A DNA stretch of 56,775 bases from NCBI GenBank assembly GCA_902620585.1, contig CACNJC010000008.1:1-56775 (forward strand). Reading direction: 5' to 3'. Positions 49,702 through 56,089 of this stretch are shown here, in pieces; positions within the stretch are counted from its first letter, which is position 1, and each line of letters opens with the position of its first letter. A model generated the notes under the pieces. The model had not been told where the DNA came from, did not search any database, and saw only the letters and a list, made by a program, of their open reading frames with translations. Both the position numbers and the translations under genes were made by a program. Origin of the DNA: an uncultured Pelagibacteraceae bacterium. GTDB taxonomy: Bacteria > Pseudomonadota > Alphaproteobacteria > Pelagibacterales > Pelagibacteraceae.

Positions 49702-50601
49702 TTATTTATTATTTAAAACATGAAAATATTTTTCAAAATGTGCTTGAAAATAAAATTCGTACCCATTTTCACCATGAATTTGAGTTGTAGGAAAATAAGG
49801 ACAAACTTCCAGCATTCTTGGCGATTTTAATCCCTCTGCAATATCAATTCCTAATGTTTGATTTCCTATATGCGCTTTACTACTTTTGATTATCATTGCC
49901 ATCTCAAGGAAATCTTTACATTCATAAAACTTCAAATTTTTAATATTATTTTTTAAACTTTGGTATTCTTCTGAAACTCCTATGTAATAAATGTCATCAT
50001 ATTTTTCTAAAAAGCTATAATCTATAAATGGATTTTGATATCTAAGTGACCTACAGATTGTAATCTTATTTCTCAAATCGGCATGATCCTCGACTTCTAA
50101 ATACTTTTTGCTTAAATCAACTTGAATTCCAGCTATATGAAACCAATAACGCTTATTATCAAAACAAAGATTTATTGGTAATTCTCTTATCAAATTAAAA
50201 TTAATGTCAATTGACTGGTTGTTATATAATTCAACTTTTTTGATATAAGATTGTTTTATTAGTAATGGGTAAAGCATGTCATAAAGCTTTTTATTTAAAT
50301 AAAATTTTCCTGCGGGGTGACTATTGTAAACATCAGGTGCTGGTAAATTCGTCTGAATTATCAAATTACATTTATGCGATTTAGAAATTTCTTTTATTAC
50401 AGGTAAAACATTGATTATATCACCAATATGTCCTGCGTGCAGAAATGAAATTTCATCTTTATTTTTTAATGATGTTTGAACATCATTTAGCTGTTTTTCA
50501 TATTTTTCTTTAAAAGTTTTTTTATCTTTTTCAATTATTTTTAATCGCTTGTCAGCCGAATATTTTTTTGGATTAAAGAATTTATTAAAAAGATTTTTCA
50601 T
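49702..50601 (-). CDS. GT9-like protein, putative glycosyltransferase
   Basis: 299 residues. A charged helical N-terminus (1-45) precedes a GT-B-like body: HAGHIGDIINVLPVIKEI near residue 56 and IGNQTLGIDIAEGLKSPRML near residue 250 occupy the places of the two GT9 landmark blocks, though with altered residues. I therefore regard it as a diverged heptosyltransferase-type enzyme; direct recognition of the family is weak. It begins 4 bases inside the mtnP end and is 8 bases ahead of the methyltransferase. Confidence 0.55.
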   Translation of the reverse strand: MKNLFNKFFNPKKYSADKRLKIIEKDKKTFKEKYEKQLNDVQTSLKNKDEISFLHAGHIGDIINVLPVIKEISKSHKCNLIIQTNLPAPDVYNSHPAGKFYLNKKLYDMLYPLLIKQSYIKKVELYNNQSIDINFNLIRELPINLCFDNKRYWFHIAGIQVDLSKKYLEVEDHADLRNKITICRSLRYQNPFIDYSFLEKYDDIYYIGVSEEYQSLKNNIKNLKFYECKDFLEMAMIIKSSKAHIGNQTLGIDIAEGLKSPRMLEVCPYFPTTQIHGENGYEFYFQAHFEKYFHVLNNK

Positions 50602-51473
50602 TTTTTTAAAACTCTGCCCGCAATATATTGCAATTTTTTAATAGTTTTTTTTGTCCTTAATTTAGGATCTGTTATTATAGCAACATCTAGGCAATTATTA
50701 GCCGGATCTCCTTCAGCTGAAAAATCTTTGAACGTTTTGATTACCTCTTTAACCATACTTTGTGCGTTACTAGCATTTTTTTGCAATGTCTTGATCACCA
50801 TTTCAACATCAACTTCATCATGGTCTGGATGCCAACAATCAAAATCTGTCACCATGGCTACAGTGCAATATCTGATTTCAGCTTCTCGAGCTAATTTTGC
50901 TTCTGGCATATTAGTCATTCCAATTACATCAGCTCCCCAAGACCTATAAAGATTTGACTCAGCTAATGTAGAAAACTGTGGACCTTCCATTACAAGATAG
51001 GTACCTTTTCTTTGAAAAGGTATACCAAGTTTTTTTAAAGCCTTCTCACAACAATCTGATAAACTCTTACTTGTGGGTTGCGCCATTGATACATGAGCAA
51101 CTATTTCATCATTAAAAAAAGTTTTTATTCTTGAAAAAGTTCTATCTATAAATTGATCTATTATTACAAATTTTCCTGGATTTAAATCTTCTCTTAAAGA
51201 GCCTACTGCAGAAACTGATATAATATCCGTGACTCCAAGTTGTTTCATTGCATCTATGTTTGCTCTAAAATTAATATTACTCGGATTTATTTTATGTCCT
51301 CTAGAGTGTCTTGGTAGGAAACAAATCTCTATTCCATTTAACTCTGCAATTAAAATCTCATCAGATGGCTGACCCCAAGAAGTTTTTACTTTTTGCCATT
51401 TGTTCTTTTCAAAACCACTCATTTTGTAAAGACCACTTCCTCCAATTATCCCAAGTTTTCTTTTTTTCATCAT
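50598..51473 (-). CDS. mtnP: Methylthioadenosine phosphorylase
   Basis: A 291-residue purine nucleoside phosphorylase (class 2). It has GIIGGSGLY, the phosphate loop CFLPRHSRGHKINPSNINFRA, VMEGPQFSTLAES and the base-specificity block TDFDCWHPDHDEVD. The DCWHP block suits methylthioadenosine (MTAP/MtnP). It splits methylthioadenosine to adenine and methylthioribose 1-phosphate, which feed Apt (divergent, 40 bases away) and MtnA respectively. Two adjacent ATGs begin the gene. It overlaps the GT9-like gene by 4 bases. Confidence 0.93.
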   Translation of the reverse strand: MMKKRKLGIIGGSGLYKMSGFEKNKWQKVKTSWGQPSDEILIAELNGIEICFLPRHSRGHKINPSNINFRANIDAMKQLGVTDIISVSAVGSLREDLNPGKFVIIDQFIDRTFSRIKTFFNDEIVAHVSMAQPTSKSLSDCCEKALKKLGIPFQRKGTYLVMEGPQFSTLAESNLYRSWGADVIGMTNMPEAKLAREAEIRYCTVAMVTDFDCWHPDHDEVDVEMVIKTLQKNASNAQSMVKEVIKTFKDFSAEGDPANNCLDVAIITDPKLRTKKTIKKLQYIAGRVLKK

Positions 51474-51513
51474 TTGATTATTAATCCTTTTTTGTTAAAA
51501 CTTGAAGCTAAAT

Positions 51514-52042
51514 ATGAATTTAAAAAAGTATATCAGGTCAATTCCGGATTATCCTAAAAAGGGTATATTATTTCGTGATATAACCACTTTAATTAAAAAT
51601 CCTGAAGCTTTTAAATTCACAAACGATAAAATAATTGAGTTATCAAAAAAAATAGACTTTGATAAAGTTTCAGCAGTAGAGTCTAGGGGGTTTGTGTTCG
51701 CTTCGGCTGTATCATACGTCTTAAATAAACCTTTTATACTTTTGAGAAAAAAAAATAAACTTCCTGCAGAAACTCACTCTGTTGATTTTAAACTTGAGTA
51801 CGGAGAGGCAACTATTCAAGTGCACAAGGACTCTATATCGAAAGGGGAAAAAATTCTCGTAATTGATGATTTGATTGCAACTGGAGGAACAGCAGAAGCA
51901 GCTGCAAAATTAATAGAAATTTCTGGAGGTAAGGTAGCTGGATTTATTTTTGTAATTAATCTCTTTGATTTACCAGGAAATGATCTTCTTAAAAAAAAAA
52001 GGTTACAAAACTAATTGTTTAATTGAATTTCCTGGTCATTAA
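51514..52042 (+). CDS. apt: Adenine phosphoribosyltransferase, C-terminus split by a +1 shift at an A10 run
   Basis: A type I phosphoribosyltransferase that turns adenine and PRPP into AMP. IPDYPKKGILFRDITTL, AVESRGFVFASAV, RKKNKLPAETHSVDF and the PRPP loop VIDDLIATGGTAEAA are all standard. The unshifted frame stops at 52014 after LLKKKRLQN. If one A of the ten at 51991-52000 is skipped, the frame continues GYKTNCLIEFPGH and stops at 52042, which is the normal Apt C-terminus. I give the full span on that basis; without the shift the protein would be 166 residues. The ATG at 51514 is preferred to a TTG at 51502. Its end overlaps the convergent epimerase stop by 4 bases. Confidence 0.85.
51991..52000 (+). 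other. A10 slippage-prone tract at the frame break in apt
   Basis: Ten consecutive A between CTTCTT and GGTTAC. Nine A restores the conserved Apt C-terminus and ten gives an early stop. Runs of this length are known to allow polymerase slippage and are also common sequencing-error sites. Confidence 0.85.
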
Positions 52043-52929
52043 GAATTATGTTTAATAAAATTTTCTACGTAATCTTTTAATTTACGCTTCCCAAAATAAC
52101 TAATAATTCTATTGGATAGGTTTTTATTTACTAAAGCTGATGTAAACCTTTCTCCACTTCTTTTTGGTAAGTATTTAATTTTTGATTTAAACATTTTAGC
52201 TACTTCATAAATAGAATAAGACTTTGTGTTAGAAATGATATAATGCTTATTCAAATTCTTCTTCCAAGCTAAATAGCAAATTTCAACTGTATCATCTATG
52301 TGAGTAAATCTTCTAGTTTGAGTTCCAGGTTTCACAACTGGCATAGATTTCTTTTTCAAGTAATGATGTTCGAAAATACCTATAACGGTAGACATTGATC
52401 CTTTAGAAATTTGATTAGGCCCATAAACATTATAAAAGTAGATAACTTCATACTTAAACTGAAAACGTTTTTTAAAATTTTCTAATTGCTCTAAATTAGT
52501 TGCTTTTGAAAAAGCATATGGAGATAAATTTTTATCTTTCCCATTATTACCCAAAGAGGCGGATGTAGCAGAGTAAACAAGTTTAATATTATTAATTAAA
52601 CAAAAATTAAAGACCGCATTTGAACCTAGAAAATTGGACTCTACACATTCATCCATTTTTAGAAAACTTTGATATATTCTTGCAAATTCACCAAAATGAA
52701 AAATTGAGTGAATGTTTTTAGGGTTTTTAATTAAATCATTTATATTTTTTGTGTGTCCCCTTATGTATTTTACTCTTTTGTTTTTTATATGATTTTTTTT
52801 AGTACCCGATGAATAGTTATCTAAACTTATTAAGTGAAATTTTGTTTTTTTTAAAAGATATTTAATAAGATTTGTCCCTACAAATCCGGCGCCACCTGTT
52901 ACTACTATCTTTTTTTTACTATTCGACAT
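52039..52929 (-). CDS. NAD-dependent nucleotide-sugar epimerase, GalE-like
   Basis: A 296-residue extended short-chain dehydrogenase. GGAGFVGTNLIKYLL starts the Rossmann fold, SLDNYSSGTKKN follows, and the active-site Tyr-x3-Lys is YAFSK near residue 137, with Ser in SATSAS. FYNVYGPNQ and TRRFTHIDD are typical of UDP-glucose/UDP-GlcNAc 4-epimerases. Substrate is uncertain. It ends against apt and starts 31 bases after the GT2 gene on the same strand. Confidence 0.8.
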   Translation of the reverse strand: MSNSKKKIVVTGGAGFVGTNLIKYLLKKTKFHLISLDNYSSGTKKNHIKNKRVKYIRGHTKNINDLIKNPKNIHSIFHFGEFARIYQSFLKMDECVESNFLGSNAVFNFCLINNIKLVYSATSASLGNNGKDKNLSPYAFSKATNLEQLENFKKRFQFKYEVIYFYNVYGPNQISKGSMSTVIGIFEHHYLKKKSMPVVKPGTQTRRFTHIDDTVEICYLAWKKNLNKHYIISNTKSYSIYEVAKMFKSKIKYLPKRSGERFTSALVNKNLSNRIISYFGKRKLKDYVENFIKHNS

Positions 52930-52960
52930 GAGAATTCATTATATCTTTGAAATAATTAAA

Positions 52961-53821
52961 TCAATCTAATCTTGGTCTGAACCAGGAGCTCTTGTTAAAT
53001 AAAGCATTCATAAATCCTGAGGCTCTACAGTAATATAATCTACTTTTAAATTTATTCTTAATTAAGAAAAAATACACACTTTTGATAATCGATTTAAAAA
53101 ATGTTAAAAAACCAAAAAAGAATGCTCTTGTGAAACCATAATGTTTTTTTCTAAAGTAAAACTTTGACCAGTTCCAGTGCCAATTTCTTGAAAATTCTAA
53201 CTCATTTCGATATTTTTCATCAACGGCTTTTGCACCAAGATGCGATATTAATGATTTACTATAAACATAAATCTTTTTAAAATTATTTCTTGTTCTTAAA
53301 CAAAGATCATCATTTTCAAGATACATAAATATTTTTTCATCGAAAAAATTATTATCAAATTCGTCTTTATTTAAAATCATTGAATATCCATCAATCTGAC
53401 TAACTTCGATCAAATCAGCTTTATTGTTTTCTGAGTGAATATCTTTTTTATAATTTGGAAAATCTTTGTTATCACTTAAAGGACTTAAGATTGCAAATTT
53501 TAGATCTTTCGAAATTTCATAAATCTTATTTAAAGTGTCTGATCTCAAAATTGTATCTGGATTTAAAATCATTACAAACTTAGTTTTTGCTTTTCTAATT
53601 CCAAAATTATTTCCAGCTCCCATTCCTAAATTCTTACCTGTTAAATAACATTCGATATTTTTATATTTTTTTTTTAATGTATCAATAAATTCTTGATCAG
53701 ACGAATTTTCTACGATTATCTTTTTAACTTCTGGATCAATTGACTGTAAACAATCGTCAATAATATTTTGACTTTTTATTGTTACTATTATTATTGTTAA
53801 ATTTTCTTTTGTTATTTGCAT
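52961..53821 (-). CDS. Glycosyltransferase, GT2 family (rhamnosyltransferase-like)
   Basis: A 286-residue GT-A enzyme: IIIVTIKSQNIIDDCLQSI start, GKNLGMGAGNNFGIRKAK, MILNPDT as the metal-binding motif and YLENDDLCLRTRN as the acceptor block. The order is that of WbbL/RfbN-type rhamnosyltransferases, and dTDP-rhamnose-type genes lie just beyond. A Lys/Arg- and Phe-rich C-terminus (about 225-275) may sit on the membrane. Divergent from rfbB, 65 bases away. Confidence 0.82.
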   Translation of the reverse strand: MQITKENLTIIIVTIKSQNIIDDCLQSIDPEVKKIIVENSSDQEFIDTLKKKYKNIECYLTGKNLGMGAGNNFGIRKAKTKFVMILNPDTILRSDTLNKIYEISKDLKFAILSPLSDNKDFPNYKKDIHSENNKADLIEVSQIDGYSMILNKDEFDNNFFDEKIFMYLENDDLCLRTRNNFKKIYVYSKSLISHLGAKAVDEKYRNELEFSRNWHWNWSKFYFRKKHYGFTRAFFFGFLTFFKSIIKSVYFFLIKNKFKSRLYYCRASGFMNALFNKSSWFRPRLD

Positions 53822-53886: not shown

Positions 53887-54891
53887 ATGAAAAGGTTTAT
53901 TGTTACTGGGGGTTATGGCTTTATTGGTAGTAGCTTAATTAAGCTATTATTGAAAAAAAATTATACAGTCCTAAATATAGATAAGCTGTCGTACTCAGCT
54001 CAAAAGTATAATTTAAAAGATGTAAAGAGTAAAAAGTACTTTTTTAAAAAAATTGATATTAATAACAAAAAAGAGATAACTAAGATTCTAAAAAGATACA
54101 AGCCACATGGAATTTTCAATCTCGCTGCAGATACACACGTGGATAGGTCAATTGATGATTCTTCAAACTTTATTAGAAATAATATTCTTGGCGTATACAA
54201 TTTGTTAGAAGCTATTAAAAACTACAACAAAAATATTAGATTAGTTCATATATCTACGGATGAAGTATATGGAGATATTGCAAATTCTAAGAGGTCGAAT
54301 GAAAGTTTTCCATATGTACCTAGTTCACCATATTCTGCTTCAAAAGCTTCCTCTGATCACCTTGTTAATGCTTTTGTAAGAACTTATAAAATTGATGCAG
54401 TCATATCTAATTGTTCTAACAATTATGGTCCAAGACAATATCCTGAAAAATTAATTCCTAAGATGATTTATAATATATTAAACAATAAGCCTCTTCCAAT
54501 ATATTCAAAGGGAAAAAATTTACGAGAATGGATTTATGTTGATGATCATTGCGAAGCTTTGTTAAAACTATTTTTTAAAGGAAAATCAGGAGAAAAGTAT
54601 AATATTGGGTCTGGTATTAATTGCAGTAATCTTTTTTTGGTTAAAAAAATATTAAAGACTTTTTCAGATAAAAATATTGAAATAGGAAAAAAGGTAAAAA
54701 TTATATTTGTCAAAGATAGACCTGGTCATGACTTTAGATATGCTCTTAATAGCAACAAAATTAAAAGAGAATTAAAATGGAAGCCGAAAATAAACCTCAA
54801 TCAAGGTATATCTAAAACAGTTGACTGGTATATAAATAACCAAGGATATTTTAAAAAATTAAATGAAAAAAATTTTAGTTACAGGTGGTAA
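53887..54891 (+). CDS. rfbB: dTDP-glucose 4,6-dehydratase
   Basis: A 334-residue RmlB: GGYGFIGSSLIKLLL, AADTHVDRSID, STDEVYGD with the catalytic Asp-Glu, YSASKASSDHL with Tyr and Lys, and RQYPEKLIPKMI. It makes the 4-keto-6-deoxy intermediate of dTDP-L-rhamnose and related sugars. Its end overlaps the following fused gene by 29 bases. No rfbA is seen in the window. Confidence 0.93.
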   Translation: MKRFIVTGGYGFIGSSLIKLLLKKNYTVLNIDKLSYSAQKYNLKDVKSKKYFFKKIDINNKKEITKILKRYKPHGIFNLAADTHVDRSIDDSSNFIRNNILGVYNLLEAIKNYNKNIRLVHISTDEVYGDIANSKRSNESFPYVPSSPYSASKASSDHLVNAFVRTYKIDAVISNCSNNYGPRQYPEKLIPKMIYNILNNKPLPIYSKGKNLREWIYVDDHCEALLKLFFKGKSGEKYNIGSGINCSNLFLVKKILKTFSDKNIEIGKKVKIIFVKDRPGHDFRYALNSNKIKRELKWKPKINLNQGISKTVDWYINNQGYFKKLNEKNFSYRW

Positions 54892-56089
54892 TGGAAGATT
54901 CGCTCAAGTTTTAAAAAATAAAAAAAGTAACTTTAAATTTATTTTTAGAAACAAAAAGCAACTTAATATCTTAAGCAAAATTTCAATAATAAATAATATT
55001 AAAAGATTTAAGCCAAATTATATTTTACATTTAGCTGGACTTTCTAGACCAATGAAAATTCATGACACGAATATTTGTAAAAGTATCGATTTAAATATAA
55101 TTGGAACAGCAAATATAATTAAAGCATGTATGGAAAAAAAACTAAAAGTTATTCATTTTTCAACTAGTTATGTTTATCCTGGAAAGAAAGGAAATTATAA
55201 AGAAACGGATCCATTGTTGCCATGGAATAATTACGGTTGGTCAAAGCTTGGTGCTGAATGTGCTGTTCAAATGTACAAAAATTCTCTTATTTTAAGAACT
55301 TGCATGACCGAAAAACCTTTTGTTCACAAATCAGCTTTCTCAAATGTAAAGACAAATTTTATTTATCATGACGATTTCATAAAAATTTTTTTAAAAATTT
55401 TGAATAAAAAAGGTATATTTAATATAGGAGGGAAGTCTCAATCCGTTTATGAATTTGCAAAAGTTGAAAATAAGCATGTGAAAAGAAAAATTTCTAAAGG
55501 TGAGTTACCTTTAAAAAATGGATATGAGTCTGAAAAAAATTTCAAAATATTTGTGATGAAAATTTATAAAACTAATATTAAAGATTTACTGGTAATAAAA
55601 CAAAAGAATAATATCGATAAAAGGGGTTCTTTAAGAGAAACTTTTAATAAAAAGTTATTAGACAAAAAGTTTGTTTTTGAATATTGCACAACTTCTAAAA
55701 AAAATGTCTTAAGAGGGTTTCATTTTCAAGTAAAATTTCAACAGGCAAAATATGTAAGTGTATTGAAAGGAAAAATATTAGATGTTGTAGTAGATTTAAG
55801 AAGAAAATCTCGTACTTTTGGAAAGTCATTTAAAATAATTTTATCTAAAGATAATTCAACAAGTCTATATATACCTAGAGGATTTGCTCATGCGTATTAC
55901 AGTTACAGCTCCGAAAATATAATTTATTACAAGCTAGATAATTTTTATAAACCTAAATATGAAAGTGGAATTATCTACAATGATAGTAGATTAAAGATTA
56001 GATGGCCTAACCGTGCTAAAATTGTTTCATTAAAGGACAAAAAACTAAAATCTTTTAAAGATTTTGTTTTGCGTTATAATTTTTTGTAG
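54863..56089 (+). CDS. RmlD-like reductase fused to RmlC-like 3,5-epimerase
   Basis: 408 residues in two domains. Residues 1-~235 are a short-chain dehydrogenase of the RmlD/epimerase type: TGGNGRFAQVL, STSYVYPGKKGNY and Tyr-x3-Lys in YGWSK. Residues ~235-408 are an RmlC cupin: RGSLRETF, LRGFHFQ with the catalytic His, VVDLRRKSRTFG, PRGFAHAYYS and YYKLDNFYKPKYESG. Together with rfbB this covers three of the four dTDP-rhamnose steps if both halves are active. The reductase half is more diverged, so a different 6-deoxyhexose is possible. It ends tail to tail with a 16-base overlap on the DUF4422 gene. Confidence 0.83.
   Translation: MKKILVTGGNGRFAQVLKNKKSNFKFIFRNKKQLNILSKISIINNIKRFKPNYILHLAGLSRPMKIHDTNICKSIDLNIIGTANIIKACMEKKLKVIHFSTSYVYPGKKGNYKETDPLLPWNNYGWSKLGAECAVQMYKNSLILRTCMTEKPFVHKSAFSNVKTNFIYHDDFIKIFLKILNKKGIFNIGGKSQSVYEFAKVENKHVKRKISKGELPLKNGYESEKNFKIFVMKIYKTNIKDLLVIKQKNNIDKRGSLRETFNKKLLDKKFVFEYCTTSKKNVLRGFHFQVKFQQAKYVSVLKGKILDVVVDLRRKSRTFGKSFKIILSKDNSTSLYIPRGFAHAYYSYSSENIIYYKLDNFYKPKYESGIIYNDSRLKIRWPNRAKIVSLKDKKLKSFKDFVLRYNFL

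Follow-up and report, generated by a model that had tools for sequence, protein, structure and literature searches.

A single extra A, probably artefactual, interrupts the adenine phosphoribosyltransferase gene of a draft Pelagibacteraceae genome

The apt locus and its displaced 3′ end

The window analysed here, a stretch of 56,775 nucleotides with 29.8% G+C, is contig 8 of a draft genome (964 kb in 27 contigs, 85% complete; labelled G000). Its relatives are Pelagibacteraceae (SAR11), and the named ones are almost all single-amplified genomes, suggesting that G000 itself is probably a single-cell genome. The forward strand carries apt, encoding adenine phosphoribosyltransferase, whose assembled frame 0 (51,514–52,014) gives a protein of 166 amino acids ending in KKKRLQN. 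This translation exceeds the cut-offs of two Apt profiles (TIGR01090, 196.1 bits against 185.85; NF002636, 205.9 bits against 125), and it contains the PRPP-binding loop VIDDLIATGGT: ILVIDDLIATGGTAEA. The divergent neighbour on the reverse strand is mtnP (50,598–51,473), encoding S-methyl-5′-thioadenosine phosphorylase, which is intact (NF006492, 451.4 bits against a cut-off of 437). Gene and neighbourhood are typical of apt in SAR11, and an Rfam scan of positions 50,300–53,000 matched no RNA element near it.

The frame of apt breaks at a run of ten A (51,991–52,000), preceded by T and followed by GG. As assembled, the codons read CTT AAA AAA AAA AGG TTA CAA AAC TAA, so that the protein ends in ...DLLKKKRLQN with a stop at 52,012–52,014. 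With nine A, they would read CTT AAA AAA AAA GGT TAC ... CAT TAA, giving 175 amino acids that end in GYKTNCLIEFPGH, with a stop at 52,040–52,042; the run is A9 in three relatives that share the CTT context. The preliminary description had located a break in apt at this run, which the sequence bears out, although it had counted nine codons from the start of the tract to the end of the frame where there are seven sense codons. The displaced 3′ end of the gene (52,001–52,042, forward strand) encodes the last β-strand and the FPGH motif of the Apt fold, and both are found in the next frame only.

Several comparisons support the identity of this tail. FPGH ends the protein in each of 127 further distinct apt genes that could be followed to the C-terminus, drawn from contigs of the genus and of the wider set of genomes, as expected from the earlier proposal that the tail is the usual Apt ending. 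The 175-residue reading can be aligned to its final residue with bacterial Apt chains of solved structure. In an AlphaFold2 model of a relative's Apt (L073; mean pLDDT 86, 28 sequences), residues 166–171 form the last β-strand, and F172-P173-G174-H175 is invariant across the Apt alignment. Between G000 and its closest relative, codons 1–162 show 61 silent and 9 residue-changing differences, and the 13-codon tail, read with A9, differs at two codons, one silent and one residue-changing. This agreement argues that the next-frame tail is not there by chance, and it is clearly the true Apt C-terminus. The rest of apt is under strong purifying selection and intact except for one base; the change, if real, would be very recent. 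A 166-residue Apt would lack the last β-strand and FPGH and would presumably be inactive.

Variation of the A run among relatives

Comparison of the tract in related genomes, which the preliminary description had recommended, revealed no conservation of the A run, whose maximum length at apt codons 155–165 varies from 3 to 10 A among the 127 genes, five of which have A10 in frame. All 127 are unbroken at this site, so the frameshift is not kept across relatives, and a search for a short form of Apt among them found none. A single one of these genes, that of AG-461-E04 (L128 about 3000), is broken elsewhere: around codon 16 it has A7 for A6, a run that is too short to slip. Viral contigs, searched by DNA pattern for independent copies of the A10 site, contained none. 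Some relatives, including G077 (96% complete) and G132 (93% complete), have neither apt nor mtnP, as if the pair were gained or lost together.

A phase-variable contingency tract, in which replication slippage would switch apt on and off, could make use of an A10 run near the 3′ end of the gene. We consider this very improbable: the tract is unconserved, the one further disrupted apt that was found has its break at a different site, and apt is neither a surface nor a defence gene.

Single-base insertions elsewhere in the assembly

The window contains a second frame break, at an A6 run (55,513–55,518, forward strand) in the 3′ end of an rmlD-like gene, where relatives read ELPL[KR]MDM[SN]LKKIS(KY). 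Here, the additional A creates an apparent 408-residue fusion (54,863–56,089, forward strand) of an RmlD-like protein with dTDP-4-dehydrorhamnose 3,5-epimerase, which G014, G041 and G105 encode separately, in two genes. With one A fewer, the rmlD-like gene reads LPLKMDMSLKKISKYL, and its stop shares the letters TGATG with the following start codon, an overlap that the insertion destroys. A third break in the same genome lies in a glycosyltransferase gene (L168 about 800–830; contig 2, about 77.8 kb), where a run of six A is one base too long; the homologues in G041 and G014 are intact. Besides these insertions, ligA (L153 about 1225–1234/L218; contig 1, about 65.92 kb) carries a premature TAA about 48 codons from its start, at a position occupied by Glu in 7 of 7 relatives; the nonsense base is a T directly before an A10 run. 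Because ligA should be essential, the change is presumed to be an error, and the broken gene presumably points to base errors in the G000 assembly.

Assemblies of relatives contain breaks of the same type: in addition to AG-461-E04, G014 has A8 for A7 (L232 about 4720), and G041 has T9 for T8 (L235 about 17880). All six indels (three in G000 and one in each of these relatives) are insertions of one base, and four of the six lie in runs 6–8 long, counted after the insertion, in a survey that would miss breaks near gene ends where no homologue was at hand. This spectrum suits amplification or assembly error rather than slippage rescue, because slippage rescue needs long runs, and both the A6 run at 55,513–55,518 and that of the glycosyltransferase show that the same error is not limited to long, slippery runs.

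We also examined the reliability of long A/T runs in G000, sampling the stretches around them over about 199 kb. Of 75 runs of 10–13 bases, 46 are open and coding straight through. We therefore rejected the idea of a genome full of tolerated frameshifts at runs of at least ten A: within genes, most of these runs keep the frame. Apparent breaks at nuoC/nuoD, at ThiS-like and YbaB-like genes (sequence-based names) and at others proved to be normal gene ends and starts, and the L152 homologues, in a variable region, match as DNA only. The sampled runs include an in-frame A13 near the end of a peptide-deformylase-like gene (L166 11385–11397; contig 2, 49,784–49,796), from which we conclude that SAR11 keeps very long A runs within genes expected to be essential.

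Together, these observations favour the tenth A being an artefact, introduced by whole-genome amplification, by library PCR or during assembly, a reading to which we assign a probability of roughly 70%. The cell's own apt would then have A9 and be a plain 175-residue gene, the tenth A having been inserted in the draft SAR11 genome at one of these steps while absent from the cell's DNA. In support, the 56.8-kb window holds two frame breaks and the rest of the genome one more, all through one added A, the same error type occurs in relatives' assemblies, and ligA carries its nonsense base; the strong purifying selection on apt, its intact tail and the predominance of single-amplified genomes among relatives add to this. 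Of the two options given in the preliminary description, sequence error at the homopolymer is thus the better supported: this assembly has further insertions of one A or T, as do those of relatives, mostly in runs of 6–8. Counting against an artefact, most gene-internal A/T runs of at least ten are in frame, showing that the assembly is not generally bad there, and the single-cell status of this genome rests on its relatives. As for published data, indels enriched by whole-genome amplification in human exomes are mostly insertions and homopolymer-enriched, but these insertions lean towards G/C, not A/T (PMC5467262), and in a WGA-X benchmark the assemblies of the smallest genome had the fewest indels (PMC5519541), which we count against an artefact.

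Alternatively, the tenth A could be a real and recent replication slip in this cell or its lineage that, with no efficient rescue, left apt damaged and encoding a 166-residue protein without its last β-strand and FPGH. Indels arise naturally and often in long A runs (PMC3017870), and elsewhere the gene is free of decay, which would fit a very recent change. Such damage is plausible because some near-complete relatives lack the apt–mtnP pair, whose loss seems tolerated. The same type of insertion, however, is present in unrelated genes of this assembly at A5/A6 runs, which seldom slip naturally, and we regard a real loss of function as unlikely, albeit the foremost of the alternatives to an artefact.

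Slippage at the A10 run and comparison with known systems

The second option of the preliminary description was that slippage makes two proteins from apt and tunes adenine salvage, for which we found no positive evidence, the tract being unconserved and no relative having the short form. In such a scheme the A10 would be real, transcriptional (or +1 ribosomal) slippage would restore the 175-residue Apt in part, and two C-termini would coexist. The gene, intact in all other respects, does have one indel within a run of at least nine A, the run falls within the length range of reported endosymbiont rescue, and the tail beyond it is conserved. Precedents exist in insect endosymbionts, where poly(A) slippage corrects 12–50% of transcripts (PMC5009743), and rescued poly(A) frameshifts in Blochmannia and Buchnera are attributed to Tamas 2008 where that study is cited in PMC3017870 and PMC5009743. 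In B. vafer, eight genes are frameshifted in A/T runs, against 153 coding-region A runs of at least nine (PMC3017870). Rescue by poly(A) slippage is on record for insect endosymbionts (PMC3017870, PMC5009743) and not, in the literature searched, for SAR11: a search for homopolymer frameshifts or slippage in this group found nothing relevant.

The direction of the shift also speaks against rescue. Restoring apt would need the loss of one base or the gain of two, whereas measured bacterial transcription favours insertions; in Buchnera, single insertions predominate among transcription errors in runs, where 151 of 157 insertions but 16 of 57 deletions were located, and no frame was restored (PMC5574713). 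One added A would lead into the third frame, giving ...KKKKVTKLIV and then a stop. At the ribosome, a −1 shift at the A10 run was rejected, as it would yield a short wrong tail, and only +1 (or −2) would restore Apt. Since, in addition, the A tract is not conserved among the 127 genes, no relative uses the short form, and most other +1 breaks sit in runs too short to slip, we consider rescue of a real A10 improbable, and still less probable that a free-living SAR11 lineage makes both the 166- and the 175-residue Apt by polymerase slippage. Of these three readings, we rank slippage rescue as least likely, after an artefact and a real, recent loss-of-function change. If true, slippage would bring frame rescue of the endosymbiont type into a group that ranks among the most abundant free-living bacteria, and dual Apt would be its first case in SAR11, according to the literature searched. 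An artefactual tenth A carries a caution, as scattered +1 A/T insertions in assemblies of this genus can mimic slippage or, as at 54,863–56,089, a gene fusion, and base errors can mimic the loss of an essential gene, as in ligA.

Compared with known systems, apt of G000 has the fold, order and mtnP neighbour of intact Pelagibacteraceae apt (TIGR01090, NF002636), with amino-acid identities reaching 94% across codons 1–175 in the A9 reading, and departs from it by the extra A at codons 160–162, in the G000 assembly only. It resembles the rescued genes of Blochmannia and Buchnera in its setting, an AT-rich small genome and an otherwise undecayed gene in which one indel falls within nine or more consecutive A. 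Unlike those cases, the change is not conserved in relatives, and +1 indels occur in runs down to six in the same assembly. The single-base, frame-disrupting homopolymer insertions across unrelated genes are like the artefacts of whole-genome amplification (PMC5467262), although that set comes from human exomes with G/C-leaning insertions, whereas the insertions here are of A, in a genome whose amplification is probable from its relatives.
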